Assembly (NCBI GenBank): GCA_914767715.1
Contig: OU612071.1
Span: 26,099,681 to 26,163,680, forward strand
Reading direction: 5' to 3'
Length of the DNA stretch: 64,000 bases
Source: Membranipora membranacea
Taxonomy: Eukaryota > Bryozoa > Gymnolaemata > Cheilostomatida > Membraniporidae
Shown here: positions 19,759 through 60,204 of the stretch, one piece after another
How positions within the stretch are numbered: the first letter of the stretch is position 1
How the letters are laid out: every line of letters starts with the position of its first letter
The notes under the pieces: generated by a model
What the model was told of the DNA's origin: nothing
Seen by the model: only the letters and a program-made list of their open reading frames with translations
The model's database searches: none
Made by a program: the position numbers and the translations under genes

Positions 19759-19790
19759 CCACATACCACAACCAGCTGATGAAAAGTTAC

Positions 19791-20482: not shown

Positions 20483-20573
<91 letters not shown>

Positions 20574-20590
20574 TCCAGCCAGCCAGCCAT

Positions 20591-20633
<43 letters not shown>

Positions 20634-32998: not shown

Positions 32999-32999
32999 T

Positions 33000-34410: not shown

Positions 34411-34602
34411 CTGGGGTACTCTATCATCATCACCACCATCCTGTTGAGGTTGATCATCATCACTGTTGCTTTCTCTTCTTATTCTTACCACTCTAGGCTC
34501 CAAAATCCAGGGTTGATCCAACTGCATCACTCCTATAACATTTTCCTCATCAATAAAAGATGAGCTGGATGTGCTTCTTCTTGAGCTAGATTTATATGAC
34601 AT
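34411..34602 (-). CDS. First exon of P2X7-C-like gene (displaced by inversion)
   Basis: 64 residues from ATG (34602) to donor CAG|GTGAGG, ending in phase 0. A Ser/Arg-rich start is followed by VMQLDQPWILEPRVVRIRRE and a run of acidic residues and Gln. A short aromatic-x-EP motif followed by an acidic stretch is typical at the N-terminus of invertebrate and fish proteins with a P2X7-type cysteine domain. No partner exon lies further along this strand before atlastin, but the P2X7-C-like exon at 41358 (plus strand) starts in phase 0. The exon begins 70 bp inside the terminal repeat of element E. Confidence 0.5.
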
Positions 34603-34672
34603 GTTGTTTGTTGAATTATGTTGCTATCAAGCTGTACCTGGGTACTAATTCTCATATCTCTCTTGTTTTCAG

Positions 34673-34939
34673 GGTGTATTGATGACGCCCTGGCTAAACA
34701 AATAAATAATAGTGTTTGATCTCTGCTAGATTTTTGAGGCACCTGATTGGTCAAGTACGGTACCAATCATCTCTAATGTGAAAAGCGTTACCAGAAGTTA
34801 GCAGAAGTTATGAGCTTCTACCGTAGGAGCTCATAACTCCATGCAAAGCCACTGGCAAATAGTTTTGAGACCAAATTCATCAATTAATTATGAATACTGG
34901 TGGCTCTGCTGGGCAAAGCTCAGCTGCGACAGCAGTGGT
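34673..34939. mobile_element. Terminal inverted repeat of element E (one end)
   Basis: About 267 bp, nearly the same as 54087-54842 once a solo LTR is removed from the latter. It ends GCAGTGGT immediately before TTAA (34940-34943). An internal stem TTATGAGCT/AGCTCATAA is present. The matching end at 54842 has the same orientation in the window, which is the key to the inversion model. Confidence 0.7.
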
Positions 34940-36640
34940 TTAAGGAGAGATGGAGAGACACTCAACCCCAAAAATCAAAGGAAGGACTTGCAGAGGCCTG
35001 ATGAAATAGAGGGACTGATGAGGCTGATAAGCGAATCCGAAGTCAAAGTACAGTTAGAGAAGATGCAAAATAGGAAGGCAACTGGACCAGATGAATTCCC
35101 AATGTGGGTTAAAAAAAGGATCGCCGGTGTTATCTCCGTCCGAGGACTGAGAAATATCAGTGCCTTAAGGGCGCGGCCGCCGTATTCGGCGCCAACTTGC
35201 TCTCAGTTTGCAGGCAGGTCGAAGCACACCTTGGGCGTCATATGACCCCAGTAGTCAGTAGACCGCAGCGGGATTCAAACCCAGGACCTCCAACGCTTGC
35301 GCGTTAAAGGGCAGGCACTCTAACCAACTGAGGTAGTGAAGAGTCTTAGGCAGACAGGTTTGACCTGGATGACAGGTGTAGTACAAGATGTACAGGAAAA
35401 TGGGATACCACCAGAATGGAGAAAAAGCAAAATCACGCCTTTGTATAAGCAAAACGGAGGTCCTCTTAGCTGTTCAAACTATAGAGGGATAAAACTCCTC
35501 AGTCATTGTCTAAAGCTCTTGGAGCGAGTGATAGAGGCGAGGTTAAGGGAAATGAGTATGATCAGTGGCAGGCTGTATGGCTTCCAGAAATGGAAGTCAA
35601 CAACACAGCCCATGTTTTGTTTTTTGGTACTCCAGGAAAAGATGAGGGAATACGAAAATGACTTGCATATGGTTTTTTGTCGACCTAGAGAAGGCGTATG
35701 ATACAGTACCTAGAGACCTAATCTTAAACTGTCTGAGGAAGCGTGGAGTTCCAGAGTCATATGTAAGCGCAATCAGAGACATGTACAAAGACTGCAAAGC
35801 ATCAGTTGTGACAAGTAGTGTAGGTGAAACAGATGAGATCGAGATAGAAGTAGGATTACATCAAGGATCTGCACTTAGCCCTTTCCTTTTAAAATTGATC
35901 TTTGATGTCATCACCGAGGAGATTCAGGAGGACACTCTGTGGGCAATGCTGTTTGCTGGCGACCTTGTTCCCTGCGATGAAACTAGGGAGAGGATGGAAG
36001 AGAGTCTTGAGAACTAGAGGGGTGTTTAGAAGATCCATGATTAAAAGTAAGTAGGCCAAAGACAGAGTATCTTGCGCCAGCCGGAAACTTACAAAGGATA
36101 TAAATGAAGAAGTATGATGGAGAAGGTTCAACTGATCTGCCGCAGTTATCAACATTCAAATACCCGGGAACCACAATAGATCAACAGGGGGGATGCGGAA
36201 TAGAAGTTGCAAAGAGGATAGAGAAGGCATGGAATAGATGGAGAGAGCTGACAGGAGTGTTTTGCGATAAGAAAATTCCCACCAAGCTCAAGATTCTATT
36301 GTACAAGACAGCCATGAAACCTAGACTGATGCATGGAAATGAGATCTGGCCACTGACTCAAAGACAATAAGTCAAGGTTAGTGCAACTGAGATGAGGATG
36401 CTCCGACACATTTATAATATAGACTGGGAAGAGCATAAGACAAATGAGAGTATAAGGGTGGAGGCCAAAAAGAAGCGATTGGAATAGGTATGAGGATAAG
36501 ACGTCTTCATTGGTACGGACATGTACGCAGGAGAGATAGGGAGGAAGATATCAGAATGGTGGCTGAGATGAAAATACAGGGAAAGAGAAAGGGAGGGAGG
36601 CCAAAGAAAAGATAGATGGATACAGTGAAAGATGATATGC
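34940..36640 (+). pseudogene. RTE-clade LINE, reverse transcriptase half
   Basis: Starting at TTAA, broken frames give the RT in order: EKMQNRKATGPDEFPMW, GIPPEWRKSKITPLYKQNGG with NYRGIKLL, the finger/palm segment with DLEKAYDTVPRDLI, EVGLHQGSALSPFL, then LFAGDLVP where FADD is expected. The catalytic pair is therefore lost (Asp to Gly). Thumb and C-terminal motifs follow (FKYPGTTID, KTAMKPRLMHGNEIW, KRWMD-like) to about 36640. There are several stops and frameshifts. The endonuclease half is absent here and is found at 54843-56335 on the other strand. Confidence 0.85.
35108..35336 (-). repeat. GC-rich tRNA-derived SINE inside the RTE
   Basis: It interrupts the RT frame between FPMW and KSLRQTGL. 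On the minus strand it starts with A-box-like TACCTCAGTTGGTTAGAGTG and B-box-like GGGTTTGAATCCC, then a GC-rich body and a T-rich end. It is clearly more GC-rich than its surroundings. The target duplication is unclear. Confidence 0.6.
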
Positions 36641-39600
36641 TGATATGCTTTGGTGTTTCTTGCGATTCTATATTTACTAACGAGCAGCATGGAAATAAAT
36701 TTGGATCAAGACGATACCGGACATGACACAGATATGATTAAGGCAGCTAATCAAAAAGTTGATGAGATTCCGGGGGTTTTACAATTAGAATGAGCCAAGC
36801 TTTACTTAAGCAAATTATCACTAAAACGTCGCACAAATCATCACTTGGTTGCTCTGTCAATCAGACAAAATTGCTCCCAAGACAAGGCAAGACAAGGCAA
36901 GTGGTCATTGCTCCCATTTTACAAATCAGAAACACCCTGTGGTGTGGCAGCTAGCAAGCTAGAGTGATTTGAATGAAATCTTTTGTTTTAGAGAACCATT
37001 TTTAGGAGGGATAATTGGATGAATGTCCCCTACTTTGTTCAGTTAAGTTAAGGCAAGGATGAGGCTTGGAATTTGTCTGGATAGATTTCCTCTTTGCTCT
37101 TTCCTCTTCGTTACATGTCATCAGTACTTGCATTATAATAAAAATGGATTTACCTGTGCCATAATCAACTACTTCGGAATTTTGCACAGTAGGGCAGAAC
37201 TGAGTGGTGCGTAAAATCGTTTTGTCATTAGATGCTAGATTTCCAGCCTGACTAATGAAAATGCAACATAGCTAAAGTGGCAGATAATTAATGGGCAGGC
37301 TGACCCGCAACATTCAGCATTCAAGGATCTGCTGTTCATGTATGCCTTAATTGATATGGAGTACAAAGTCATTCACTGATCATGATAGCTAACAAAGACA
37401 GAAGATATGTTGTAATCAAAGAAACATTTCACCATCTCGCTCTCAAACAAATAAACACGCAACAGTTAACTACGACAGAGGTATCATCCAAGTAAATTCA
37501 CATTATATGAATAGTCTCTCTTTGGCCTACAGTATTTCATTGATTCTTAGATGATCAAATTGATTAAGAACAATTCTGTTTTGGACGCTCTTCATTGTTA
37601 TATAATTGATATATATGACTCATTATAATAATTTTGTTTCAGCATCATTGGTATCAGTGCTTAAAGGGAATATCATCTATTATTTCTTCCCTACAACGTA
37701 AGGAACAAAAGGAAACACATAAGGTACATAGGGTTTTACCCTCTCCAATAGTCTCCTGCCCCAGCCGTAATGAGCTGTAAAATTTAACAAATGAAACTCA
37801 TGCTAAGGTTTGTGTACAAACTGTCAATGATGGGTCATTCAATTGAGTATAGTGCAATAGAAATCACTTTTAAATGATTTCCTATTATAGGAAATAATAA
37901 TAATATTTTTACAACGCTGATGACTCACCATTGGTTGTCATTGTTGCAATCATAAGGATGATGAGGAACAGACTGATTAACTGATTTCATCCTGCCTGGA
38001 AATCAGGTCATTAAACTCAATTTGGCTTCCAAACCTTCCATGAAACACAAATAGCTTGTTGCGCCAAATACTATTAACTGCTCCATAAGAAATTTGCTAC
38101 ACAGTCCGTTCCTGACAATAACAAAGTGACAGCAAAATCATACTACATTGAGTTTGAAACCCTCTGTCAGAAAATCTTTATGAGAGAAGATAGGGGGATG
38201 TTTTCGTGCAGCTTGAGCTATGGGATTATATGCAGGGTCACATCATTTGGCTCAAAAAGTGAAGGGGGCGGTAAATTTGTTAGGACTCACACAAAATTAC
38301 AGCTTATACAGCTACTATAAAACACACATCACATGTTCAGTTCATTAAATTTCAGGTAATCCAACAGAAAAATCGCCAAATATTATTGCCATGACACTAA
38401 CACTATGGCTGCTAAATAATATGAAATTTCCATTTGTAAGTTTTGAAATTAATGCACATATAAGTAACAGTGGGGGTTTAATTTTTAGCAAGACTTCAGC
38501 ATTGTCTTTGCTAGGGTGTAGCAAAAGGTTTGGGTCCAAAACAAAAGCAGCAATAGTAAGCATTGTCAGTATTTGGTGTCTTCCATTGAACGAGTGTGCC
38601 TTTATTGAGGCATCCAAGGATTATTCTGAAAATTTGAATTATATTTTTCATAGTAGCTGTTGGCAAGTTGCTCTTGGTGCAGTGAGTTCTGTGCTCTTCT
38701 GTACCTCACGGAAAAAAGGCTTTTAACACTCAATCATAATGTTGATGAGTTACCGTCCTCATCATCTGGTACAGCTGTGATCATCATCTTGTCTGACAGA
38801 ATATCTTGGAATTCACCAGCTATGTGATCTGACCTTAACATAGGCCGATAAGCAATGTGGCTGGGATCAGTTTATAACAGAGAGGGATAGATTACAATTT
38901 GTTGTCAAGTCTATTGTAAAGGGTCCCCTGGACAGTGTACAGTATTGTAAAGTGTCCAGGTGGATGTTTTCGGACGGGGATAGATACCAAAATACTATAA
39001 CGGTTTTCAATGCCTTTCAATGCCCAACTTTCAGTAACCTGTCTTGTGTTGGGACTAAATAAAATCAATCCCCTCATTTGCGTGGTCCTTAACAATATAT
39101 GTGATGTATATGATGTGAGAGTCAAAATTTAACATGTAACCTTATTTTCACCATCTAAGGATTATAGTCCCTGTCTACAACCTCAGAAAAGCAGACACAC
39201 CCAAAATTATGAACAAACATCCTACATAGAGTTTATAGTTCTAAATCCGAGACAATGATATATTAGGCAAAGTGTCAATGAGCTGTGTGTCATACAGTCT
39301 TGCATTTGCTGTTCCCACTTTGAGTTATATTATTCCTTCACAAGGAAAAGTCCGGTAATTTATACATCACATCTCCTCTACAATTCTTTGTTGAATGTTG
39401 TTTCTATTGCTATCCAATAAATACATCATTGACAGCATCAACAGGCTGCGTGATATACATCCTTGCTCAGGGTCCAGTGTTTGGGGGAGTTTTTTCTATT
39501 GCAATCAGATCATAACATCGTTGACAACATCTACAGTTTGCGTGGTATGTAACCTTATGCAGCTACCTCTTTCCCCATTAAGTGACTTACATTGCTATCA

Positions 39601-41020
39601 GAGCTCTATATTTTCATTGTATTATGTCCTGTAATCTGAGTAACAGCTTTCATTTTTCTGTTACGTATCAAACAATAAGTTGTTTTGGTGAAGGTTGTTG
39701 CTCTCAGTCATCAACCATTGCTGTCACTCAAGTTAACAAAGTGTTTAATCTCAGCATTGCCAGCTAACATGCAAATAATCTTCTGAAACTGATTCTCAAA
39801 ACAACAGAGTGGATTTAGAGAAGGAAGGGATGTTGTCAATTTTTTTAAGTGGACGGAAAAAATGTTACTAAATGATTCATACCACTGTACAATACACTAG
39901 TCCTTGGCTAGAGACATCTACTTGAGCCTTGACTCAAAGCCTCCTCAGGTGCAAGGACTTGCACAAACAGCGTTTAGGGATACTTCAAACATAGCCCAAG
40001 ACCCCCTCCCCACCCTTCCTCATATGCTAATCCACACTAACACAGGTACGGTTGCTTTTGAATTAGTCATAGACGAAAGTCGTAGTCATCCCAGCAGCCA
40101 CACAAGACAACAGTTTATCGCAATAAAAGTTTGAAGATGGCCAGTTTTTAAATGACAAAACATCGTTCTGAGTATGTCATCAGTAATGCAAATGTGCAAC
40201 ATTGTGTATGCAGTTAGACCCCGTACGATAACACCACTTGGTATTCACAAAATTCTGCTTTTGCCATGTTATAGTTTTTCTGGCTTGTTCTCTGCTGGAG
40301 TTGGTAATTATGGCAGAATTTATCTCTTTTAATTATTTCTTTAAGCAGATGCTCCCATTTTGCCTTTCCCAGGATCTGTCCTGTGAAGTTGTTGAAAATG
40401 ATGTAGCTGCGCTTAGTATTCGGATTATGATTATGATAATTGACTACTTATGGTGACTGCATTATCCCATTTTCACAAAGCCCAAAACAAATGGGGAATA
40501 TGTGACATAGACATCATATACGTAGGCAACATAGCTTTTCTGTCTGACCTGCAGGTTACATATCCTGATCATTCGAAATATAGGAAGTTCATTCCAACAG
40601 GTCAGCTTAATGGCCCAAAATTGAAGCAGAATGACATAAGCGCAAGCTGGTTAATCAGTAGTGTTACCTGGGTGTTTCATATTTAAAAACAGAAATGATG
40701 CTGTGATTTTATCGTATAGGATATTGAACCAATTCACATAAACAGTTAATGCCAGGAGAAAACTTAGATTGAGAATGATTTTAGAGAGGGTAATTGGAAA
40801 AAACAGTTGGATCAGCAAAGCCATTGAATACAACAGAAGCTAATGATTACTTCCAACTCCAATAAACTGATGAGAATTTTGAAACTATCGAAGGCAAAAC
40901 ATAATTGTCCAAAACTACAATAGCGCACCCGCATATAGTGTTTTATGGCTAAAAGATATACACCCGGGCAATGTTGAAGCTTAGGCATGTGACTGGATGA
41001 AATGTTGTTAGGCCTGGTGT
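36641..41020. other. Unassigned DNA, includes repeat copy
   Basis: It holds one copy of the unclassified repeat (about 36770-36900, sharing CTTACTTAAGCAAATTATCAC-type sequence with position 620). By the inversion model the first part would be former flanking DNA of atlastin, and the rest is intron of the P2X7-C-like gene. The 111-codon frame at 38391-38726 has no domain and is open on both strands, so it is not called. Confidence 0.4.
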
Positions 41021-41026
41021 ACTCCA

Positions 41027-41260
41027 GGGGGGGGGGGGGTGGGGGGAGGGGGTTCTTTCAATTAGCAACAGAAAAAATAGCAATCTGATTGCTCACTCAG
41101 CAAGTACGCGATACCTGCCAGTCATTGAAGGAGCTATATATTGTGGTTGAGCGATTTTGGGTAATTGAAACACCAACTGAGTGATAATTTTGACAGATGT
41201 GATGGTGATATCTTGCTTTAGTAATTGAAAGACCCCTCTGAGTAACATTACCAAGGAGTT
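41027..41260. repeat. Poly-G tract plus unclassified repeat copy
   Basis: G runs of 13, 6 and 5 at 41027-41052, interrupted by T and A, precede a TTCTTTCAATTAGCAA core related to the repeat at 590. A GTAATTGAAAGACCCC core in the opposite sense lies near 41220. Confidence 0.5.
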
Positions 41261-41357
41261 TATACACATTGGTTGTTGTATCATTGAACTTTCTGAGGGC
41301 GTTCATTGGATATATATAACCAGATTATTCTACATGCAGCCATGGTGTGTTTTCCAG

Positions 41358-41568
41358 GACATGAATCCGGACTGGTGCAAATGCGGAGGAGTGTGTGTTG
41401 TCTGGCCACAACAGGATATGAATCATTGCTGCCGGGATAACCCAGTATGGGATACAAAGAGTGAGGAAGAGTTGGACATACAATGTATCACCGAGTCAAC
41501 CAATATAAAATACGTACTCCGACCTGCTCCCCTCAGGGTAGCTTACACCAACTTCTGTACTCAGCATC
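41358..41568 (+). CDS. P2X7-C-like protein, cysteine exon
   Basis: It follows GTGTGTTTTCCAG and ends CATC|GTAAGT. It encodes DMNPDWCKCGGVCVVWPQQD, then NHCCRD, an acidic stretch with a further Cys (IQCITE), and RVAYTNFCTQHR. The order W-C-x-C-G-x-x-C, then CC, then C matches the zinc-binding C-terminal domain of P2X7 receptors (P2RX7_C), which also occurs in many stand-alone invertebrate proteins without the channel part. No P2X channel domain is present. The exon starts in phase 0, agreeing with the exon at 34411-34602. Confidence 0.75.
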
Positions 41569-41802
41569 GTAAGTAATTTAAAAAAACAAAGAAAAGTAAT
41601 TATACCTCGAGTAAGACAGGTGCTTTAATGGAGTCTTATAGCGCTCACTTTGTGTCAATTTTTGAGATGCATTGCTCACAACTGTATGACGTCGACTGAC
41701 ACTAGTCACATAACTTCACAAGGATATGATTGGGAAGTTTCTTACTTTTTTATGCTTTCAAAGGAGATTTATTCCACCATTTTTATTAGAGCACAATGAC
41801 AG

Positions 41803-42078
41803 CCTGATGCAACAACTCTTGTGCCAAACAACATTTGGAGCCAGGATGCCATTGGCAGACTCCACATAAGGCAACAATGCCTATCTGGCTATCGCAAGAT
41901 AATATTCTTCACCTCCCCATATATTGGCAAAGGCCAACGAAGACCGTTGCCCTCATGTATTTACATGATGATAAGGGCAACATATCCAGACACTGACAAT
42001 GATGAGGAATTTGCCAATGCTGACTTCAGAGTCTATTTGTGGTGGATTTTTCCACCACAGCTGAACATTCAAAAATAA
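41803..42078 (+). CDS. P2X7-C-like protein, last exon
   Basis: It encodes IWSQDAIGRLHIRQQC, then RRPLPSCIYMMIRATYPDTD and NADFRVYLWWIF, stopping at 42078. The R-PSC-x-x-x-IR-x-x-YP block is the second conserved part of the P2RX7_C fold. The acceptor at 41802 is phase 0, but the preceding exon ends in phase 1. Either a weaker donor (41573, GTAATT) with an acceptor at 41840 is used, or the gene has lost frame. It faces the transposase gene tail to tail, 254 bp away. Confidence 0.7.
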   Translation, partial: PDATTLVPNNIWSQDAIGRLHIRQQCLSGYRKIIFFTSPYIGKGQRRPLPSCIYMMIRATYPDTDNDEEFANADFRVYLWWIFPPQLNIQK

Positions 42079-42331
42079 ATTCATGAATCCTGAGTTGTCT
42101 TCTCCTTTCATCATTTTTATAACTTTCTAATTTTAATAATAATATGCTTTTAATAACTGAACTTAACTATTACAATCCATCTAAAATATTTCATCAGCCA
42201 GTATTATAATAATGCTTTTAGTAACTGATTTTAACTCTTACACAACCATCTAGAATTTTCCCTGTGTCCTGCTGTTGCATCAGCAAGTATCATATTACAT
42301 TATGCTTTTTATAACTGAACATCAGAGGTGT

Positions 42332-42453
42332 CTAGTCAGTTAATATCCAGCAGCTCTCAAGCTCGCTGGTGGCTTCTTGACTGGCAATATTGAAAGCATC
42401 GACAAAGGTCTTCTCCCACATGACCTTCCGTACCTCTCCATCAAGTGGTGATT
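42332..42453 (-). CDS. Possible last transposase exon
   Basis: It follows ATTGCAG. Phase 0 gives NHHLMERYGRSC and an early stop; another frame gives a more protein-like SPLDGEVRKVMWEKTF to WILTD stop (42332). Neither reaches the family's later catalytic motifs. Confidence 0.35.
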
Positions 42454-45400
42454 CTGCAATATAATCATACATATTGGTTCAAAGTCATTATCAATAACTT
42501 AGAATATTGTGTATTATGTATTCAACACCAAGTCTATAGACAAAACACTGATGCTGTGTGTTTTGTCTATGATGAGGATCAGACATCAATAGCAAACAAA
42601 TCTGAGTTTGGAGGACCAGACTTTGGCCGCCACTCCAAGTTATAACCTTGATCTAGATGCGCCCGCCAGCTTGTCAGAGCCCTAATATAATTAAAATAAC
42701 GCCAGATGCCAGTTGGAAATATATAAACTATTTACCTCCCAGTCAATTTACCAAGTAAAATATTAAGTTTAATACCCCTAAACGCCTGTCAATTCCCTTT
42801 ATGTATGAACATGTTATACAGGATATATAAATTTTTTTACCTATGGTGACTCAATATGGATGAAGAGAAAAAAATAAAGCATGAAAATAAAAGTTTCTCT
42901 ACTAAGTTGGATTTCATTTGGAGTTAGTTGACCTAGCACACATTGATCTCTAGGAGGTTTTTTCAGGTTCCGAATTTGTACTGGTTATATGTATGTATTT
43001 GTGATCTCCTTAGATCAGAGAGAGAGTGAGGGAGGGAGAGAGAGAGAAAATGAAATGGATTTTTCCTCCATTTGTGTTCATGGTATATAGATAATAAATA
43101 TTTTAACTCAAGCTGTTTTATAGAGCTAAAAATATAAAAGTGAAAAAACACCTACAAATCTGCCTACTGTGTTATATATCAAGGTATTATATGACTTAGC
43201 ATCATAAACCAACTCTTCCGAACATGAAAGAGTGTAACGCTACAATTTAATACGGATCTGACTATATCACGGGACAAAAATAAAAGTATAACATTGCATG
43301 TAGAGCTCATCTTCGGAAGATTTCCAAAGTATTTTTTTCTGAATCTCACCTTTACAAGATTGTTAGCTACTATCTTGCTGGTAGCAGCATCAATAAACGT
43401 GTACATACCATACATGGCACTGTGGCCAGGTGAATCGAATCGGCCATCTCCATTCAGTCTCAAGGGCTGTTCTACCTCTTTCAACACCGCGTCCATCTGC
43501 GTCAGGTACACGTCTTGTACAACCTGTAACATACAAAGTTATTTTTATGATATCAACAAGCTGGAGTGGCCGATATTATTACACTTGTATATATTTACAA
43601 TCAGTATCATGTAGTTACTTGATTAGTTTTGAGGCTATTATTAGGAGTATTCGAACCATGGGAAGACCTCCCGGTTCGCGCTGAGCCCAAAGTGTGAGTT
43701 CGCGCCAGATATGGAAGTACAATGAGATGGCCTGCTGAGTAGTTATCATCTAGGTCTTGGACTGAAATGGCCCAGGTTTGTCAATGGGAATTGATACATA
43801 TTTTGAGGGCAGGTCAAGTGGTGACAACCCAGCTCGATATAAACTAGATAATGCTGAGCAAACGGTTGTCTATAACTCCTTTTTTGAGCAAGCAAAGTTT
43901 TCACTTGATTCGAAGTCATGGAAAACATCTTTCCGAAAGTTATTCAGTTTGGTGATATAAAAAGCGTACCGTAATACCTCACTTATAAGACACCGGACTT
44001 ATAAGTGAAGCACCTCCCTCGGAAAATATATAAATGCTCCAGTTATAAAGCATCCCACAGCTATAAGGCATCCCTTTGAAAAAATAATTGACCTGGTTGG
44101 GATTCGAACCCGCAAATTACTTATTGACAGTGATAGCAAGGCAGACGCTCTACACACAGAGATCCACTATACTTTCACCTAGAATTGAGAATAATTGAGA
44201 AAATTGAGAATCCTGCCAGAGTGGACAACTCTACTATCTTAAAATTGAGAAAATATATCCCTTCAATACATTGTCTCGCATTTTCTCAATTTTTACTTGT
44301 TCTCAATTCTCAAAATTTCCGATAAAACATGAGTTGTAATTTGTTAAAAAAAATTTTCAAGTTGAATTGTTATTTAAAACTACATAAATCCCTCACTATC
44401 CTCCAAATTACATTCCTGCTCAACTATTGTGAGGCAAACCGAGTGGTTTTGACAAGAGAGTAAAGACTGAAAGCGTACAAGCAAGCACTGGACAAATTCC
44501 TTATACTCTTTTTATGATGAAGCAAAATAAGCTTAGCTGTATGTTTTATTTATATGAGTTGGTTGAAGACTGGACAGGTACAGCCTGTATAAAAACATCT
44601 GGCCTGATTAGAAGAAGACTGGTTAGTTTTGAACCAAAGAAAGATGATGATGTGAGTATTTTTTTACTAGAGTAGCCGTAGTACTAGTCATAAAAGTCAA
44701 GTCGAGTACACTTACTCTTAGCAAGGAGTTAAAGGGATGGATAGCTGCTTAGGTGGTAGCCTGTCCTGACAAGCTTGTCAAAGATTGACAAAGCTTGTCA
44801 AGACAGGCTACTTAGATGGGTAGTACTAGTAGCTTAGTTTTTATCTCCAATAATTGATTGATTGATTCCTTGCTGGTGGACTGAGTTACCTCAGTTAGCC
44901 CTGTCTTTGGAACTGAGGGACAGTAAAGGATTAGGGCGAAGTGATGGCAACATGTTGACTAGCGTAGTTAGTGCTCATTCTCATTGAAAGAGCTCCTGAT
45001 CCAGCGATCAGTTGAGTATTTACGTAATCTTTCTCTTGCTCAGATTTACATTGTATGATCTTGTAGGTACACAATCTATATTTCTGGATGTACTTTTTGG
45101 GACAAGGCTGCCAGCAGTTAAGTTGAAGACCCGAATGCTATTCAGAGGAAGACATGGTTCAATGCAAAAATGACTGATCTAGAGAAGATAGCACCCTCCG
45201 CTAAGCGTAAGTAGCCTAAGCCTAATCAGATGTATAATATGCATTACCAGTGTTTTTGTCAGTTGAATTGGTAACAGGAAGCCCTATGTCTTGTGACGTG
45301 TCTAGCGAGCCTACATGGCCACAGATTGGCTTGAGATTATAACACCCTAACCCTAGTTGTTACAAGCCTCATCTAATACAGGTAATTGGTATGTCATCTT

Positions 45401-48400
45401 GCCGATCGTGAGACAATGACATAATCAATATTATATGCAAATTATGGCTTATTGGCGACAAGGTGGATGCACGCAATTATTATTCTCTTCTATGCTCCAT
45501 CTCTCTGATTAAGTCTTTTCCGCTGACACTCATGACATAGTAATATTTGACCATTTCAACCTCATGTGTAAACGCGGCTTAATATTTTGGGCAGAGAGGT
45601 CATGGATTCATTTAGCGTTGTACAAACGAAAGGACAATATACTGAATAATTAACTGGTGTACGCTTTCTGTTTATATCTAGTTTCCTTGATGATGCAAAG
45701 AACGATAGGATCACTTAGGCGGTGAAGAATTTGATGTCTACTCTGTTACATGACCTGTTAACATCCATCAACTCTTTGCAAATGGTATGTTGTTTTCTTA
45801 AAGCAAAGTAGGCCCAAAGTTTATTAGTGTTTGTTTTGAGGAACTACATCATACCGTAGAAGAGTAGGAGAAGTGCGCCTTTCCGCACATAGGCTACTTG
45901 AATAAGCTCAAATTAGCTAGAATTGAGTACTAGCTAACATTAACTCATCTAGCTAAATTTAATTCAAGAAAATATTTACTCCTCTACGGTACTAGTCAAT
46001 GCTAGATGTTTAGACACTTTGAATAGTTTTCATTCTAACGTGGCACTGAGGCAACCATCACAGCAGCTGATTCAATTCATTTGTGCAATCACAACGTAAA
46101 ATCGCAAAGCTCATGCAAAAACTACCAAACCTGACAGGATCACATCTGATCAGACAAAAGACAATTTTGCCGATGCGATACATTGGAAAAAGCATCTTTT
46201 GTTTTATCAGATACTTTCACATTGCCCTTATTGCATAATATAAACATTCTCCTCTTGCAGGTGTAGTGAGAGTCTTGCTGCACAGATCCAGACTGCCACG
46301 CTGTCATATCTCATATGTTGACTGCACGCTGCCAACTCATCACCTGCTGCAAAGAACACTTCAACAAATGTTGTCCGCATTCGTACGGCCATACGAGCTG
46401 AGCTGCAGTCTGAACCAACTTAATATTAGCCTCAAGTTCTGCATTCAGCGTGCAATGAGGTATTGTAAGGTCATCATGACGTCGACATACATATTATGTA
46501 AATACCTACTAAGGATTTTCCTATGACTGTCTTCTGACCTGTACACAGTGCTGTGCTTGATATATTCTAGTGTTTTTTTTACTTGACTCTCATGTTTTAG
46601 TAGCAACTTTTCAGGCTGAATAAAAGGATTAATTTTTTTGTTGAGGACATTGAGGTCAACATCGAGGTGCTATAGTTTTAACTTTGAGAAATCATCTGCT
46701 TATATTTGTATCTTATTAAATACAATATAACCTATCTTACAAGCTTTGTACCCATACCTTTCGCAAAATAAAACTCTTTCCTTGAATTGGCAAATAATAC
46801 CGTTTCTGTTATATCGCTGATTAAGTCGCAGCATAGATATCTAAATGGACATTACTAGCTAACACACAGGATTACTCTATATGAAATGATGAACAAACAG
46901 TGTTGCGGGCCGTAGCTAACCTTTATTGGCGACTATCAAGTCATTAACAACCTGGTCAAATAGTTCACTGCTAAGAATTTCTTTGCCAGCCATCAAAAGT
47001 CAATTGTTTAGATGACTCATAAGGCAATTAATCCTCATCTGCAAATTGAAAAAGCGTTTCTATTGCTCATTGTATACCTCTCTCTATGCACAAGGTTATG
47101 TTTTATAACTATAAAAAAACTACAAAATATCCCAGAAGTTGTCATGACACGCAAAATGAGAGGACAACTTCTTCTTATTTTTTTCCTTTGCCCCTCCCTT
47201 TTTTCTCTTTTCTCCTCCCTCTTTTCCCCACTCTCACCGAGAAGTTTATCCCCGAGCCCTACACACAGAGATCCACTATACTTTCACCTAGAATTGAGAA
47301 TAATTGAGAAAATTGAGAATCCTGCCAGAGTGGACAACTCTACTATCTTAAAATTGAGAAAATATATCCCTTCAATACATTGTCTCGCATTTTCTCAATT
47401 TTTACTTGTTCTCAATTCTCAAAATTTCCGATAAAACATGAGTTGTAATTTGTTAAAAAAAATTTTCAAGTTGAATTGTTATTTAAAACTACATAAATCC
47501 CTCACTATCCTCCAAATTACATTCCTGCTCAACTATTGTGAGGCAAACCGAGTGGTTTTGACAAGAGAGTAAAGACTGAAAGCGTACAAGCAAGCACTGG
47601 ACAAATTCCTTATACTCTTTTTATGATGAAGCAAAATAAGCTTAGCTGTATGTTTTATTTATATGAGTTGGTTGAAGACTGGACAGGTACAGCCTGTATA
47701 AAAACATCTGGCCTGATTAGAAGAAGACTGGTTAGTTTTGAACCAAAGAAAGATGATGATGTGAGTATTTTTTTACTAGAGTAGCCGTAGTACTAGTCAT
47801 AAAAGTCAAGTCGAGTACACTTACTCTTAGCAAGGAGTTAAAGGGATGGATAGCTGCTTAGGTGGTAGCCTGTCCTGACAAGCTTGTCAAAGATTGACAA
47901 AGCTTGTCAAGACAGGTTACTTAGATGGGTAGTACTAGTAGCTTAGTTTTTATCTCCAATAATTGATTGATTGATTCCTTGCTGGTGGACTGAGTTACCT
48001 CAGTTAGCCCTGTCTTTGGAACTGAGGGACAGTAAAGGATTAGGGCGAAGTGATGGCAACATGTTGACTAGCGTAGTTAGTGCTCATTCTCATTGAAAGA
48101 GCTCCTGATCCAGCGATCAGTTGAGTATTTACGTAATCTTTCTCTTGCTCAGATTTACATTGTATGATCTTGTAGGTACACAATCTATATTTCTGGATGT
48201 ACTTTTTGGGACAAGGCTGCCAGCAGTTAAGTTGAAGACCCGAATGCTATTCAGAGGAAGACATGGTTCAATGCAAAAATGACTGATCTAGAGAAGATAG
48301 CACCCTCCGCTAAGCGTAAGTAGCCTAAGCCTAATCAGATGTATAATATGCATTACCAGTGTTTTTGTCAGTTGAATTGGTAACAGGAAGCCCTATGTCT

Positions 48401-51400
48401 TGTGACGTGTCTAGCGAGCCTACATGGCCACAGATTGGCTTGAGATTATAACACCCTAACCCTAGTTGTTACAAGCCTCATCTAATACAGGTAATTGGTA
48501 TGTCATCTTGCCGATCGTGAGACAATGACATAATCAATATTATATGCAAATTATGGCTTATTGGCGACAAGGTGGATGCACGCAATTATTATTCTCTTCT
48601 ATGCTCCATCTCTCTGATTAAGTCTTTTCCGCTGACACTCATGACATAGTAATATTTGACCATTTCAACCTCATGTGTAAACGCGGCTTAATATTTTGGG
48701 CAGAGAGGTCATGGATTCATTTAGCGTTGTACAAACGAAAGGACAATATACTGAATAATTAACTGGTGTACGCTTTCTGTTTATATCTAGTTTCCTTGAT
48801 GATGCAAAGAACGATAGGATCACTTAGGCGGTGAAGAATTTGATGTCTACTCTGTTACATGACCTGTTAACATCCATCAACTCTTTGCAAATGGTATGTT
48901 GTTTTCTTAAAGCAAAGTAGGCCCAAAGTTTATTAGTGTTTGTTTTGAGGAACTACATCATACCGTAGAAGAGTAGGAGAAGTGCGCCTTTCCGCACATA
49001 GGCTACTTGAATAAGCTCAAATTAGCTAGAATTGAGTACTAGCTAACATTAGCTCATCTAGCTAAATTTAATTCAAGAAAATATTTACTCCTCTACGGTA
49101 CTAGTCAATGCTAGATGTTTAGACACTTTGAATAGTTTTCATTCTAACGTGGCACTGAGGCAACCATCACAGCAGCTGATTCAATTCATTTGTGCAATCA
49201 CAACGTAAAATCGCAAAGCTCATGCAAAAACTACCAAACCTGACAGGATCACATCTGATCAGACAAAAGACAATTTTGCCGATGCGATACATTGGAAAAA
49301 GCATCTTTTGTTTTATCAGATACTTTCACATTGCCCTTATTGCATAATATAAACATTCTCCTCTTGCAGGTGTAGTGAGAGTCTTGCTGCACAGATCCAG
49401 ACTGCCACGCTGTCATATCTCATATGTTGACTGCACGCTGCCAACTCATCACCTGCTGCAAAGAACACTTCAACAAATGTTGTCCGCATTCGTACGGCCA
49501 TACGAGCTGAGCTGCAGTCTGAACCAACTTAATATTAGCCTCAAGTTCTGCATTCAGCGTGCAATGAGGTATTGTAAGGTCATCATGACGTCGACATACA
49601 TATTATGTAAATACCTACTAAGGATTTTCCTATGACTGTCTTCTGACCTGTACACAGTGCTGTGCTTGATATATTCTAGTGTTTTTTTTACTTGACTCTC
49701 ATGTTTTAGTAGCAACTTTTCAGGCTGAATAAAAGGATTAATTTTTTTGTTGAGGACATTGAGGTCAACATCGAGGTGCTATAGTTTTAACTTTGAGAAA
49801 TCATCTGCTTATATTTGTATCTTATTAAATACAATATAACCTATCTTACAAGCTTTGTACCCATACCTTTCGCAAAATAAAACTCTTTCCTTGAATTGGC
49901 AAATAATACCGTTTCTGTTATATCGCTGATTAAGTCGCAGCATAGATATCTAAATGGACATTACTAGCTAACACACAGGATTACTCTATATGAAATGATG
50001 AACAAACAGTGTTGCGGGCCGTAGCTAACCTTTATTGGCGACTATCAAGTCATTAACAACCTGGTCAAATAGTTCACTGCTAAGAATTTCTTTGCCAGCC
50101 ATCAAAAGTCAATTGTTTAGATGACTCATAAGGCAATTAATCCTCATCTGCAAATTGAAAAAGCGTTTCTATTGCTCATTGTATACCTCTCTCTATGCAC
50201 AAGGTTATGTTTTATAACTATAAAAAAACTACAAAATATCCCAGAAGTTGTCATGACACGCAAAATGAGAGGACAACTTCTTCTTATTTTTTTCCTTTGC
50301 CCCTCCCTTTTTTCTCTTTTCTCCTCCCTCTTTTCCCCACTCTCACCGAGAAGTTTATCCCCGAGCCCGCCGCCGGCTATTCAGCCACACTTTCAGGTAA
50401 CAGATTTGGCCAAATATAAAAAAAAAACTTATAGGTGAGGTATTACGGTAAAATATAAAAAGAAATCAACTAACCCCATGAAGATAGTCTGATGCCTGAA
50501 GAAAGTATATACACGATATGTTGAGGAACTGGAAGGCCCGCAAAAACTTCATCGGAAGAACCCCAGTAAAGAGCATGATGGCGGCTATCAGGATGTTCAA
50601 AAGCGGCACTCCCTTCCGAACAGGGCCGTTATGCCAGACATATGAGTGGCCACAACTCTGACATGATATAGTGAACTGGACATTGGCGCCAGTAGGTCTC
50701 TGAGAGGGTTCCACTAGGGTTTCCTTGCCACATTGCTTGCATCTACCTATGAGCTCCATAAGACTGGTGTGATAAACAATGTACTTCTTCTGGTCATACC
50801 AGGAATCTCCACTGAAACATACAATGATGGTTGCTATCAATCAAACATTATTTTTTCATTCTTCTTTTATATAAGCCTAACAAGCAATAGCTAATTTTGC
50901 GTGAAGAGAATTTATCTCTTATGTGTGTAACATCTGTTTTCATGGCAATACCAAATTGGTCATCAACAAATATTGGGCTCGTCCATACAGTCCTAGAGTC
51001 ATAGATCGATGAGTGAAGTCAAGGCACAACTTTGGTGGACAGTGGATATATTTTATTCAGATTTTATATAACACAGCCAAAACATACCTTCTACGGTAAG
51101 ATTCAATATCTACATCGAGTTCCTCCTGGTAGAGCTCTTCCTCATCTGTATCTGGTCGGTATGTGGAGTCCAGGGGCTGCTCAGGTGATTCCTGTAATGA
51201 CACAAAAATAAGAATAAAATTGGTTGGAGTGAGATGTTGTGTTTGGGAATTTGTCAGGGGCAGGTCAATTTACCGTTGCTGCCAGGACCAAATTTACTGC
51301 AAGTTCACCACACATAACGGAGCAACTGATAATGACGAAAACAAAAATGCTGTAAACACAATAGAAGAGATGTCATTTCACAATACATCTAACAATCTTA

Positions 51401-53118
51401 TTCCATGACATCATGATAAAAGTAATCTATCTGTTCATTGTAACTACATGCTACTTACACTACTCGATCTTGGTGAATTACTGCTGTCGGAGGACTGGAG
51501 AATATCGGCTGTGGGTTCTATTTGGGCTGCTGCAGTTATTACTTCATCTGTTCTGTCTGTGCTGTCTTTACATTGTACTTCATCTGCTAGAGTTGTAGCT
51601 GGTGCAGAGTGCTCCTAGTATGTTCTGAACACCTGTTCTATAAATAAATAAGGAGCAAATTTAGATATATTACGCCTTGTTGGTAATCAATAACATATGT
51701 ACAGCATCTCTGGTCTCTGTCTCCGTATAGAATGAGTACCAGAGCTATCAGATCAATAATGAACTCAATGATATAAAGTTTCAATATGCTAAGCTCGAAA
51801 TCAGCAAGGCAATCAACAATCAATAGCATTGTCGTAGATAGCGGAAGTGACAAATACTGGGAATAATATCTGCAGGTACTTCCGGAGTACAAGAACTAGG
51901 CTAAATATAGTGTCAATCGATATTGGTAAGCTGCATTTGGGTGAATACCCAAAAATCTCCATGTCACCTTACTCACTGGAGGTTGAAACTTACTCAGGAA
52001 AGGAAGTTTGCGTTTCAGCAACCATCATATGAAATCTAATCAAATCTGCAGGGTTAGGAGTATTCTCAGGTGTCATAACGGCTGGCTCACTGTCACTGCT
52101 GCTGTCATTTGGCAACCCAGGCAACGGTGGTGACATGAATTCTGGTACTGTCTCATGTCTCAAGGGAGTAGGTAAATCTTGTACTGTCTCATGTCTCGAG
52201 GGAGTAAGTAATTCTGGTACGGTTTCATGTCTCATTGGACTATCTTGTTGTGTACTAGTCCCTGCACCATAGAGAAGGCTCCTCTTCGACGAACTGCTGA
52301 ATGACAATGGAAATTTATGATATTTTTTTTACAAATAATATAAATAGGTGGACTTATATAGTGATATATAAGGTATTGGTGCCCAATAACAGGTACATAA
52401 TTTCCAAATTAATCATTGAAACCCCCATATATTGTCCCTCTTCGTTAATCATCTATTAGTTTGTATGTTTAATTTTTCTTGTCATTAGTAAAATTCACGG
52501 CAAGATATCATCTGGGATTGAGGACTCAAGATCTTCTGTAGATACTGTAAGCTTACGAGGTCTAGGTGTTTGTTGAACAGCCACACGACTAGGTCTTGCT
52601 CCACGACATAGTCTCATCATGTAATGTGAAAGCACTAGATATTATAAGCATGGTACATATCATTTGCAAATTAAAACATGAACAAAAGTACCGGGACAAT
52701 AATGTTGGCCTCTTATATATGATTCATCGATTACAACATACATTGTCAAGGGCAGAACGACTTTGTATACCTATCACAGGATTCCACAGACAAAAAAAAG
52801 TTTGTAGGCATGTTGCAAGTCATACATAAGTCAAAGAATTGATGAGTGTGGAGTTAGAGGATTGATCAAACTCGTGATACTCAGTAATACCACAGTTCAG
52901 GAGGAAACATACTTCTTATTAAATCCGAGGCGATATTTGTCATAATTCTCGATATCCTGTTCGCTTAAGTATAGGTAGCAAACTGTACTCTGCTGTGTCA
53001 CATATCCCATCCTCGGATTAGATTCTTTGACCCATTCCACTCATCGTTTATGAACAGCGGCATCTTTTGGGAAAAGAAATGCATGTTCTGTCAGTCCGCA
53101 AACACAGCAAAGTTTCAT
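42332..53118 (-). CDS. THAP-domain DDE-like transposase gene
   Basis: Seven well-bordered exons plus a possible last one encode an N-terminal THAP-like zinc finger, an acidic Ser/Pro-rich linker, a zinc-ribbon region and the start of a DDE-like domain containing NGDGRFDSPGHSAMYGMYTF. This D-G-R-x-DSPG-x-SA-Y signature occurs in a large set of uncharacterised invertebrate proteins with transposase features. THAP transposases with TTAA targets are described in Kolobok. One junction (exon 3 to 4) does not keep phase in my model. There is an in-frame TGA in the THAP domain. The later catalytic region is not found: the gene stops about 1 kb after the first motif. It may be decayed, or domesticated in a truncated form. 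Confidence 0.65.
43350..43523 (-). CDS. Transposase exon 7, first DDE-like motif
   Basis: 174 bp, phase 0-0. It encodes VVQDVYLTQMDAVLKEVEQP, NGDGRFDSPGHSAMYGMYTF and AATSKIVANNLVK. Acceptor TTACAG, donor GTGAGA. Confidence 0.8.
44098..44165 (-). repeat. tRNA-like SINE fragment
   Basis: The minus strand carries TGCCTTGCTA and B box GGTTCGAATCCCAACC, related to 12281. The tandem-duplication breakpoint (44150) cuts through it. Confidence 0.5.
44150..47258. repeat. 3,109-bp tandem duplication, unit A
   Basis: It is repeated immediately at 47259-50367 with an exact 3,109-bp offset. Both units end CCCCGAGCC. I saw two substitutions between them (C44808/T47917 and A45943/G49052). Contents are an AATTGAGAA-rich hairpin at 44175-44325, a decayed gene, hairpins at 44756-44811 and 45853-45990, and a pyrimidine-rich tract. 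Confidence 0.95.
44434..46526 (+). pseudogene. Decayed multi-exon gene, copy A
   Basis: An exon at 44434-44651 is fully open: KPSGFDKRVKTESVQAS, GQIPYTLFMMKQNK, YELVEDWTGTACIKTSGLIR, RRLVSFEPKKDDD, then donor GTGAGT. Later candidate exons at about 45067-45208 (VEDPNAIQRKTWFNAK, TDLEKIAPSAKR), 45682-45785 (AVKNLMSTLLHDLLTSI) and from 46261 have good splice sites but carry TAA or TAG and do not share phase. The family is not recognised. It is probably a captured or ancient gene fragment. Confidence 0.4.
47259..50367. repeat. 3,109-bp tandem duplication, unit B
   Basis: Second unit, essentially identical to unit A. The right edge runs into CGCCGCCGGC, unique sequence before the element terminus. 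Confidence 0.95.
47543..49635 (+). pseudogene. Decayed multi-exon gene, copy B
   Basis: Same sequence as copy A, shifted by 3,109 bp, with the same stops. The duplication therefore came after the decay. Confidence 0.4.
50475..50811 (-). CDS. Transposase exon 6, zinc-ribbon region
   Basis: It encodes GDSWYDQKKYIVYHTSLMEL, two CxxC pairs (CKQCGKE and CQSCGHSYVWHNGP) and a hydrophobic NILIAAIMLFTGVLPMKFL segment. This is the conserved middle of the family. The inner TA-flanked element starts 26 bp past its donor. Confidence 0.8.
51088..51191 (-). CDS. Transposase exon 5, acidic linker
   Basis: It encodes ESPEQPLDSTYRPDTDEEEL and DVDIESYRR. It ends in phase 2, completing Ser with exon 6. Confidence 0.7.
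51459..51614 (-). CDS. Transposase exon 4, acidic linker
   Basis: It encodes EHSAPATTLADEVQC and a Ser-rich end (SSDSSNSPRSSS), phase 0-0, donor GTAAGT. Confidence 0.5.
51994..52296 (-). CDS. Transposase exon 3, repeated linker
   Basis: It contains three repeats of P-x-RHETVPE-type (RHETVPELLTPS, RHETVQDLPTPL, RHETVPEFMSPP) and an acidic Ser run. Acceptor TTCAG, donor GA|GTAAGT. Confidence 0.6.
52499..52612 (-). CDS. Transposase exon 2
   Basis: It encodes LCRGARPSRVAVQQTP then RPRKLTVSTEDLESSIPDD. This resembles the THAP C-terminal AVP-x-I-F-like turn followed by a linker. Phase agrees with exons 1 and 3. The acceptor (GATGAG) lacks a strong pyrimidine tract. Confidence 0.5.
52913..53118 (-). 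CDS. Transposase exon 1, THAP-like domain with TGA
   Basis: It reads MKLCCVCGLTEHAFLFPKDA, then AVHKR, TGA (53041-53043), VEWVKES, STVCYLYLSEQD and YDKYRLGFNK. Cys-x2-Cys, the FPKD block and a Cys at the third ligand fit THAP. The TGA replaces the invariant Trp, and the fourth ligand His is Tyr (C-Y-L-Y). The domain as written would not fold normally unless TGA is read through. Confidence 0.6.
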
Positions 53119-54086
53119 GGTCAACCTAAAAAAGTTGTAAGTATATTGAATAAAAAGAACCGACAAAAAATGAACGCGTTAAAAGACAAATTTTCCAAGG
53201 CCTTTGTTCTGAGACAACCGAGGCAGAGTTCCCTGCTGATGCTCATCAGAAACTGAAGACAAACTTATAAACTATATTTTAATATCTGTGTAGGGGAGAA
53301 TCAGGCTGCAATCTTGTCAATGAAGACCAACAAAGTAGCACGCATGTACTAGTTGAGAATGCAAACATAATTACACACACACAGCTCAGGCTATTTGAAG
53401 CCAGACTGTCACTATGCCAGCTGATAACAAGGTATCAGAGACTTGATCGCATGGGTCTCATCGTCTCTAGAACCAGGTCAAAACTGAACAGAGCAAAAAC
53501 TAAAGCGTGCTATCAGACCCACCAAGATCAGAAATATTATAATTCATTTGTATCAAGCCGACAGTAGATAGAGAAGAATATCGTTTACGTATGTTCTAAG
53601 CCTGGTCAAGAATGTGGCTGATTTGTGCATTTATACAGTAACAGTAACAACCATGGATGATGGGTGCAGTAATAACCAAAGAAGTGATAGAAGCAACAGG
53701 TAGATGAGCAATTGTAGAGACTCATCTATGCCTATCCATTCATTATAATAATATCTATCCATAATAACATTACTACTGTAACTATTATCAAACCCAAACC
53801 TTCTTCTTTCAATTTCATGGTCAGCAGCAGGAAGTAACAATCACAAATAGTTATGTGAGACTGGTTAGTTATTAAGTAATAAACCCTTACCTGCAGAATG
53901 AAAGCTACAGCAAGTGTGAGATATAAATATGATTGTTGGTAACTGTTTTATTTCAATTTCATCTAAAAAGTCATGTAAGATAGTAAGAGTAACTGAACAG
54001 CAGCTGCTGCAGTCACCTGTCACAATGTAGATAGTAAAATGTACTGCATGGAGAAGATAGCCCATGTGCAAGATCAAGTTATTCGG

Positions 54087-54842
54087 GGTGAATTGATAAC
54101 GCCCTGGATAAACAAATAAACAATAGTGTTGGTGTCACAAACACTGTTTGTGACATGCCTAGGTGCATGACTCTACATGAAGTTAGGCTTTGTATATTGC
54201 ACTGTTATGGTTGTCATGGTCCTAATCTGATTAATTGTTATACTCTTCCGCATTTACTTCCATTTTTTGCACATTTAATTACCATCTAAATGCGGAGGTT
54301 GGCCATCAAAATAATGACGTATCATCCCACCCGTTTCCATTTTCACGACCTATTTATACAGGTCAGTATAACGAACAGTGGATTTTGCTCTGAAGAATCA
54401 GTTACAATTGCGAGTTACAATTGCGAGTTACGATCGGGAGTTACTTGTGATAGTTACAACTTGGCGTTGCAATTTATCAGTTGCCTGGGGCATTTGCCCC
54501 AGGGTGCAGTTCAGTAATAAAATCATCAAACTGCCGAAAAACTGCATTCAGTATTTTAAAGTAATCTCATATGAACTCTGCCAGCAGTGAACTGTCGTGA
54601 TCTTTCTCGATCCGACATTGGATTTCAGCAAGATTTTTAAGGCACCTGTTTGGTCAAGTACAGAACTCGTCATCACTATGGCGAAAAGTGTTAGCAGAAG
54701 TTAGCAGAAGTTATGAGCTTCTTCCTTAGGAGCTCATAACTCCATGCAAAGCCACAGGCAAATAATTTTGAGGCCAAACTCATCCATTAATTATGAATAC
54801 TGGTCGCTCTGCTGGGCAAAGCTCAGCTGCAGCAGCTGTGGT
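54087..54842. mobile_element. Terminal repeat of element E (other end), with solo LTR
   Basis: It aligns to 34673-34939 outside a 485-bp insertion. It ends GCTGTGGT against TTAA (54843-54846). Confidence 0.7.
54133..54617. mobile_element. Solo LTR, family R1 copy 2
   Basis: It runs TGTCACAAAC to CGATCCGACA, flanked by the 4-bp duplication TTGG (54129-54132 and 54618-54621). It has a TATTTATA box at about 54350. It carries a short duplicated block (ACAATTGCGAGTT) absent from copy 1. Confidence 0.8.
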
Positions 54843-56335
54843 TTAATATCATCATCTCCACACAAGATTTTACCGTCTCTATCCTTCACAAAGATCATCC
54901 TGTCTATGTCTTGAGACCTTCTTTTTCTGGTTTTGGCAAGCTTATAGAGGTGCTTTGGTCCGTTTTTTTTAGATCTTCATGAAACTTTTCATACCCCTTT
55001 TCTTTTGCTTTTGCCACTTTCTCCTTTAATGTAATATTCTTTTCACTATAGTCTCTTTCTTTGGCTTCAGACTCCACTGGGTCCATCTCAGGTCTTTCCT
55101 TTGCGCTCTGCCACTCCTTAAAAGCAGTTCGTTTCTGTCCTACTGCTTCCTGTACCTCTGAATTCCAAAACCAACACTCTTTCTCTATGTATTTCCCTCC
55201 AGATGTCTCGCCGAGTTCCTCTTTTGCTAGTTCAACTGCCTTCTGTTACATATTTCCCCATGCCCATTCCCTTGTCTCCTAACTCTCGATGTATTCAGTT
55301 AATTTCTCTATATACTCCTGCCCTTCTTCCTTTAGCTTCCATCACTTAGTCCTAGCCTTTCTTTTCCTTCGCCGCTCTTGCTTTCTCTTCACTGTAAGAT
55401 CCGCTATGAGAACTTTATGCTGTGGTGCTATAGACTCTCCTGGCAACACCTTGCAGTTCCTCACTACTCCTAGATGGTCTCTTCTAATCGCTATATAGTC
55501 TATGACTGACCTATTTCCTCCACTCTTGAATGTTATCAGATTCTCTGCCTTCTTTTGAAAGAAAGTGTTTATGAGTGCCGAGTCGTATTTCTGTGCCATC
55601 TCCAAAACTCGCTCTCCCTCCTCATTTCTCCTTCCCATCGTCCAACCTCCATGCCATCTCTCTACTCGCTCTCTATCCCTCCCAACATGTCCATTCAAAT
55701 CTCCCGCAACTATCAACTCTTCTCCTTCTAGGATTCCAGCCAAGGTGCCGTTAAGTTGGTTCCAGAACAAATCTTTCTCCTCCTGACTGCATCCTTGCTG
55801 GGGGGCATACACTGATATGAGGTTGATGCTCATTCCAGGTATTACCAATTTCATAATATATATCATGCAATCTGGCTTCCTTTCTACTGCTATTACTTTA
55901 TCCTGCCAATATTCATTGAGACAAATACCTACTCCATTTCTTGCTTTCTCCCTCCGCAATATTACAACTATACCCAACACCAAGAGCCCTGGCTTTTCCA
56001 CCAGATTGACCCCCCAGTCCATCTCAATTCCTGCAGGCATAGTATGTTGATCTTTTTGGCTAACATAATCACAGCAACTTCCCTGCCTTTTCCAGTAAGA
56101 GTTCCAATATTTATCGTTGCCATCCTGAGTTTACAGCATCGCCCCTTCCGTTTTCTTATCGCAGCGTTGGGCGATAGTGGTTCCGGTGTGAACTGCCACA
56201 TAAGGTTGGCGTCCTAGCATTGGTTGAAAACGTTGTCCCTGCATGTTTTCTGTGAAGCGGGGGCGGGGGGACTTCACCAACTGGATGCCCTTCCTGGCGT
56301 TGAAATCAGCCACTTTTAAATTAAAACAATTCAAA
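54843..56335 (-). pseudogene. RTE-clade LINE, endonuclease half
   Basis: An apurinic-type endonuclease reads in order: ATINIGTLTGKGREV, ILCLQELRW, frameshift, NGVGICLNEYW, ISVYAPQQG, ELIVAGDLNGHVGRDRE, NRSVIDYIAIRRDH and HKVLIADL. The usual SDH is PQH. A linker with AKAKEKGYEKF and KTRKRRSQDIDRM follows up to DDDIK, exactly at TTAA. A 232-codon frame (55342-56040) is open. The RT half is missing and lies at 34940-36640. Confidence 0.85.
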
Positions 56336-60200: not shown

Positions 60201-60204
60201 GTAT

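Follow-up and report, generated by a model that had tools for sequence, protein, structure and literature searches.

The window analysed here, a stretch of 64,000 nucleotides from the bryozoan Membranipora membranacea (contig OU612071.1, positions 26,099,681 to 26,163,680 of the forward strand), contains a single long interspersed nuclear element (LINE) of the apurinic/apyrimidinic endonuclease (APE) type that has been cut at one TTAA. Its endonuclease half now lies on the minus strand and its reverse transcriptase (RT) half on the plus strand, and each half abuts a terminal repeat of a TTAA transposon, here called element E. We propose that E inserted once into the linker of the LINE and that an inversion followed, of a block in which lie the RT half, one of the terminal repeats and what is probably the first exon of a KolX-like gene of E. 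To this history we give a probability of roughly 85%; the observation holds, and its interpretation is very probably right. Nested transposons and a local inversion are an ordinary kind of event, and the points of interest are the KolX-bearing element and the candidate breakpoints. The nest is a readable fossil record of a LINE, a TTAA transposon within it, smaller inserts and one inversion with nameable likely breakpoints. With E, one more element bearing a KolX-like gene joins those known, and the nest illustrates how a transposon can be stranded when a local inversion reverses one of its ends.

The endonuclease half with the linker occupies 54847-56335 on the minus strand and contains several frameshifts and stops. 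It ends at the TTAA at 54843-54846, while its 5' limit (56335) was adopted from a preliminary description of this DNA, and it matches the Pfam domain Exo_endo_phos_2 (ORF, or open reading frame, 55342-56130; E 6.7e-4, short of the curated cut-off). The RT half (34944-36767, plus strand, broken ORFs) starts at the TTAA at 34940-34943 and has a 3' end, ~36767, that was estimated by eye. RVT_1 is matched in its ORF 35646-36017 on the plus strand (E 1.5e-12), and a comparison of the half with the LINE RT of record NZ_CP104070.1 (positions 14820-27152, hereafter L002) gave 42% identity across 260 residues of the query. When the two halves are joined, RVT_1 is matched with an E of 1.1e-20 and Exo_endo_phos_2 and Exo_endo_phos with E of 0.005 and 0.009, both below the cut-off. 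The joined halves thus have an N-terminal AP-type endonuclease followed by the RT in one reading direction, as is characteristic of APE-type LINEs. The resemblance to RTE/APE-type LINEs extends to the co-directional linker, to a spacing like that of L1 ORF2p and to a linker IKERW shared with the L002 LINE; unlike an intact element, the LINE here is a dead copy split by E. We call it RTE-like, a provisional label as regards its clade.

The evidence that the halves belong together comes from the junction. A join with a single TTAA gives CGDDDIKERWRD, and the longer translation is RMIFVKDRDGKILCGDDDIKERWRDTQPQKSKEGLAEA followed by two stops, which are due to a separate frame shift within the RT half ~20 codons past the join. 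After a join with two TTAAs no frame spans both sides. Exact DNA translations across the junction were compared with an ORF of the L002 LINE (L002:5371-5724, containing CIKDENQNVLVNEGAIKERWKEYF), and the near-junction scores were 63 for one TTAA, 32 for zero and 34 for two. The one-TTAA translation aligns without gaps over 34 residues (8 identical) to ORF residues 2-35, with IKERW lying across the join. With a longer query, in which the frame shift of the RT half was bridged by hand, the joined sequence scored 108, the endonuclease end alone 33 and the RT start alone 76; none of 2000 queries with a shuffled endonuclease end reached 108, the best shuffle scoring 105. Human L1 ORF2p provides a check of co-linearity: of the ten PDB sequences listed, three align unbroken across the join (for example, query 66-696 to chain 70-682; L1 has four extra residues there or close by), and in the remaining seven the match begins at the join or further into the RT half. 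We read the halves as one LINE cut once; what is shown is the repeat pair, a TTAA at both ends, the opposite orientations and a linker that is restored when a single TTAA is kept. The preliminary description had placed an RT half on plus starting at a TTAA and an endonuclease half on minus ending at one, with codons for DDIKERW restored across the junction by a single TTAA, and all of this was borne out by the domain matches, the TTAA positions and the ungapped alignment.

The comparison record deserves a remark of its own. NZ_CP104070.1 is named as an Alicyclobacillus fastidiosus plasmid and is typed IncFIA with catA1, and it carries a LINE RT (45.5% identity over 112 residues); this suggests a mislabelled bacterial artificial chromosome clone with a eukaryotic insert. 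It was the one plasmid record matched by the RT half, which had no match among phages, and the endonuclease ORF had no match among plasmids.

Both halves of the LINE adjoin the same repeat of E. A self-comparison of the window (limits E 1e-4 and 45 bp; matches starting in 4400-6000 omitted) gave a direct-orientation pair, 34715-34943 and 54618-54846, with 87.8% identity over 229 bp, and a second block, also direct, at 34668-34716 and 54082-54130 (89.8% over 49 bp). Between the two blocks the right-hand copy contains an insert of 485 bp, and with the insert omitted the repeats form a single continuous alignment of 272 bp plus the TTAA, past which they diverge. The terminal repeat adjoining the RT half thus lies at 34668-34939 (plus) and that adjoining the endonuclease half at 54082-54842 (plus in the window, interrupted by 54133-54617), and the outer end of both is ...GTGGT at the TTAA. 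Two same-facing copies, each against a LINE half and ending in ...GTGGT, had been described before and were found again here; the length of ~267 bp then given for the repeat is replaced by 272 bp plus TTAA. No third copy was listed in the window within these limits.

The two copies differ by ~12%, and this would fit a different origin, in which two E copies entered the same TTAA of two LINE copies and complementary parts were then deleted. We disfavour this explanation and consider it highly improbable. The window has only complementary pieces: the two halves of the LINE query, the candidate KolX exon 1 and KolX exons 2-3 each give a single strong match, two repeat copies are listed, and complementary E parts on two sides are hard to obtain from two copies. 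The LINE halves also contain 14 further TTAAs (7 and 9 sites when the junction site is counted on each side), three of which lie in or at a SINE-like insert, so that a second use of the same TTAA is unlikely. The divergence itself can be accommodated by one element, as the ends of a single Kolobok element can be unlike; in Table 5 of PMC6004289 the 16-base ends differ in all of the seven Xenopus rows considered.

A single insertion of E followed by inversion accounts for the orientations as well. Three sets of features are mismatched in the window: the two halves of the LINE, the two terminal repeats of E, and the probable KolX exon 1 with respect to exons 2-3. Turning back a single block, with the RT half, its repeat and exon 1, would set all of them right, and the terminal repeats, direct in the window, would then be inverted. 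The first two conflicts are linked and not independent, because each LINE half abuts a repeat, and the KolX orientation is a separate line that depends on exon 1 being KolX. The ends of E are also complementary: one side has a repeat with the probable KolX exon 1, the other a repeat with the transposase pieces and KolX exons 2-3. That E entered an RTE element and that an inversion followed had been put forward in the preliminary description, and this history is supported in that it accounts for the orientation conflicts, the complementary ends and the one-TTAA linker score. An inverted duplication of the whole locus (LINE plus E), with complementary deletion from each copy, would yield the identical final order, and the window alone does not separate it from an inversion. 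It requires that a duplication be followed by two or more deletions that match each other, and the comparisons that were run gave no residual duplicated stretch between the two sides; we regard it as highly improbable.

Between its repeats E holds pieces of two genes, a transposase on the minus strand and a KolX-like P2X7-ballast protein with exons on the plus strand. A Kolobok/Mutator-like transposase exon with CxxC...CxxC at 50514-50804 (minus) matches Pfam Mutator (PF20700) with an E of 0.0019 alone and 2.2e-4 with neighbouring pieces, both below the cut-off. A probable second transposase exon at 43347-43526 (minus) is an ORF with NGDGRFDSPGHSAMYG and had no Pfam match by itself; we take NGDGRFDSPGHSAMYG to be Kolobok-like, and it looks like the first catalytic D. 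Pfam scans of the three minus frames of 51000-54600 gave no match to a THAP domain, which is usual in Kolobok elements but which an intron could hide. Whole-frame scans of this kind, with stops read as X, are insensitive, and missed even the Mutator match that was obtained with single ORFs.

The KolX-like gene is represented by exon 2 at 41358-41568 (plus; PDWCKCGGVC...HCCRDN...QCITES, acceptor TTTTCCAG, donor GTAAGT) and by an exon 3 region at 41857-42030 (plus; an ORF with GKGQRRPLPSCIYMMIRATYP). The KolX-like sequence matches Pfam P2RX7_C with an E of 0.0058-0.0076 (0.0076 for exons 2 and 3 together), below the cut-off. PDWCKCGGVC, HCC, QCITES and LPSCIYMMIRATYP contain seven cysteines, which follow the same order as in the three consensus motifs of the zinc-coordinating P2X7 ballast domain given by Rump 2020 (PMC7016195). 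Exons 2-3 depart from that consensus in having CxCx3C in place of CxCx2C and a second motif with a longer gap, and they lack the final Y(S/T)G. The frame of exon 3 has, by eye, no obvious acceptor that would join it to exon 2, and the gene, and so E, may therefore be decayed. The candidate for exon 1 (34411-34602, minus; 64 codons from ATG, donor CAG/GTGAGG, phase 0) lies ~66 bp inside a terminal repeat, and exon 2, ~7 kb away on plus, has a phase-compatible acceptor. It contains the only match in the window to a P-aromatic-x-hydrophobic-EP motif, taken to be typical of KolX, and position, phase and this motif make it the probable exon 1. Searches of the KolX protein against solved structures gave no match, nor did searches of KolX-like exons 2-3 and the transposase pieces among plasmids. 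Viral contigs, scanned once with a DNA pattern and four times with protein queries, yielded no relatives, and a search of genome contigs gave one weak locus (L001) with a match of 23 residues, which was not used.

The elements most similar to E are found among the Kolobok transposons. As described by Kojima and Bao (PMC9587614), those of the Kol0 lineage duplicate TTAA and encode a transposase together with KolX, a protein with the P2X7 ballast fold, whose family was proposed there as the origin of the cytoplasmic ballast of the P2X7 receptor. E resembles elements of the Kol0 type. The 4-bp TTAA duplication of Kolobok was found, with TTAA at both ends and exactly one restoring the LINE linker. 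Of the DDD/E transposase with C/DxxH and zinc finger that characterises the superfamily, E yielded the zinc region with its weak Mutator match and the motif resembling the first D. Like Kol0 (Kolobok-1_XT, PMC9587614), E appears to combine this duplication with terminal repeats, a piece of a Mutator-like zinc transposase and a second protein with ballast cysteines. Unlike Kol0 as presented there, it has 5'-AC...GT-3' termini and an altered ballast spacing, and neither a THAP domain (within the scanned stretch) nor a core past the first D was found. The termini are a first point that weighs against our account: the rule given for Kolobok is 5'-RR...YY-3' (PMC9587614), and both ends of E, with TTAA taken as the duplication, read 5'-ACCAC. 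Since the rule is broken, E is called Kolobok-like and is not placed as a member.

Two other groups of transposons share features with E. KolobokP elements have long terminal direct repeats (PMC9587614), and the repeats of E are direct in the window. In the account given in that paper the accessory gene of KolobokP is a His-Me nuclease, whereas that of E is KolX-like. Direct repeats of the KolobokP type were rejected for E as a LINE half lies to the inner side of one repeat and, by eye, the inner edge of the repeat has neither a TTAA nor inverted repeats of its own; the direct order is explained better by inversion. The piggyBac transposons also target TTAA, and a few encode a KolX-like protein, which by the description in PMC9587614 lacks most of the conserved cysteines that E retains. 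Pfam scans, which do not include every frame of 44-50.5 kb, detected no piggyBac transposase domain in the sequence covered. We consider it rather unlikely that E stands for a new lineage of TTAA elements, intermediate between Kolobok and piggyBac and marked by 272-bp repeats, 5'-ACCAC ends, a Mutator-like transposase and a spliced KolX-like protein of altered spacing, and that its inversion was driven by complementary C13 and G13 tracts. A literature search on nested Kolobok and RTE elements found no paper.

We allowed for breakpoints within 32734-34411 on the left and within 36768-41357 on the right. No perfect inverted repeat shared by these intervals is longer than one of 15 bp, with one arm in each: ACCCCCCCCCCCCCT at 33669-33683 (plus), the candidate left breakpoint, and 41026-41040 (minus; AGGGGGGGGGGGGGT on plus), the candidate right breakpoint. 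The intervals proposed earlier, about 33.0-34.4 kb and 36.65-41.3 kb, likewise contain one arm apiece. If the inversion broke here, the block would be ~7.4 kb long and KolX intron 1 would measure 1059 bp. An inverted repeat of at least 15 bp was obtained in 3 of 200 dinucleotide shuffles and, among real pairs of intervals, in 4 of 168; when 1500 real pairs were drawn, 57 reached 15 bp, seven of them with G/C runs on both sides. The window has three G/C runs of at least 9, two of which are the candidate arms, and the chance that two complementary runs of the three land in both intervals is 0.0055. With a chance of about 0.5-4% for such a coincidence, the C13/G13 repeat is suggestive, and we give about even odds that it marks the inversion breakpoints. 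A literature search on inversion breakpoints found no paper.

Homopolymers at both candidate edges are prone to read or assembler failure, and the apparent inversion could be an assembly artefact in which a segment of ~7 kb was misoriented between the C13 and G13 runs; a nearby tandem duplication of 99.9% identity could likewise be an assembly fault. The window contains no N bases and hence no hint that a scaffold was misoriented at a gap. An inverted repeat of 15 bp is short for confusing an assembler, and two matching misjoins would be required. We judge an artefact distinctly improbable. MITE-like (miniature inverted-repeat transposable element) copies were considered as mediators of the inversion and rejected, no copy having been found in the left breakpoint interval.

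On the proposed history, an APE-type (RTE-like) LINE would originally have lain near a gene that we take to be atlastin-like, either upstream of it or within one of its 5' introns. A Kolobok/KolX-type, TTAA-specific E, with terminal inverted repeats of ~272 bp and two convergent genes (transposase and KolX-like), would have been pasted by its Kolobok-like transposase into the TTAA of the endonuclease-RT linker, duplicating it. The block with the RT half, the right end of E and the probable KolX exon 1 would later have been turned by breakage and repair or by recombination, perhaps between the C13 and G13 tracts. We infer the order of these events, the exact breakpoints and the identity of KolX exon 1. 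As the two ends of E are now in direct orientation, it should be immobile and no longer excisable as a unit.

Several further points count against this history. E, its insertion and its inversion are read from the copy in this window. In the join, zero TTAAs also leave one frame open through the junction into the later RT frame, though without IKERW, and openness alone is therefore weak evidence for the join, which is supported by the alignment to another LINE. The frame shift of the RT half lies only ~20 codons beyond the join, and the RT start alone aligns to the L002 ORF only at residues 67-94, so that a match to KERW is obtained with the joined query but not with this part. A search across 56335/36767 for the target-site duplication of the LINE gave none that was convincing, the only matches being of 8-9 bp and not flanking both ends. 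Within E, most of the catalytic core of the transposase was not found (an insensitive frame scan of 42.0-43.7 kb gave no match after the first D), and the candidate KolX exon 1 has no Pfam match. The 15-bp inverted repeat was found post hoc, is of low complexity and is of borderline significance.

Smaller inserts lie within the nest. The 485-bp insert in the terminal repeat (54133-54617, no strand assigned; TG...CA, TTGG on both sides) reads like a solo long terminal repeat (LTR). It has a relative of 91% identity at 23792-24262 with AGAA flanks, and both copies are TG...CA with 4-bp flanking duplications. The RT half contains an antisense tRNA-SINE-like (short interspersed nuclear element) insert of ~230 bp at approximately 35110-35340 (minus), with A and B boxes read by eye against the consensus; ARAGORN found no tRNA gene in it, and Rfam and tRNA scans found nothing. 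Neither this insert nor the LTR-like one had been mentioned in the preliminary description. E also contains a tandem duplication of 3.1 kb (44147-50368, no strand assigned; 99.9% in the self-comparison), whose copies, 44147-47259 and 47256-50368, are recent or an assembly artefact. A MITE-like family with G-rich ends (GGGGG..TCTTTCAAT and ATTGAAAGA..CCCCC) is present at 586-828, ~36772-36880 (shortened) and ~41043-41238.

The surroundings of the nest include the exons of a GBP/atlastin-like host gene on minus at 23460-32733. The exon at 32443-32733 (minus) matches Pfam GBP with an E of 2e-11, and the others were read by eye; the atlastin name is our provisional assumption from this reading. 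The exons run leftward on minus from 32733, and the nest is therefore upstream of the host gene or in its 5' intron. An integrase core (rve, E 1e-5, below the cut-off) at 17540-18016 points to an LTR-retrotransposon-like element. Diverged direct repeats of 63-71% identity flank the nest at 38020-38678 and 59736-60933, and the stretch adjoining the 5' end of the LINE, 56876-58804, contains several diverged repeat copies that are 76-90% alike with a spacing of ~390-1065 bp.

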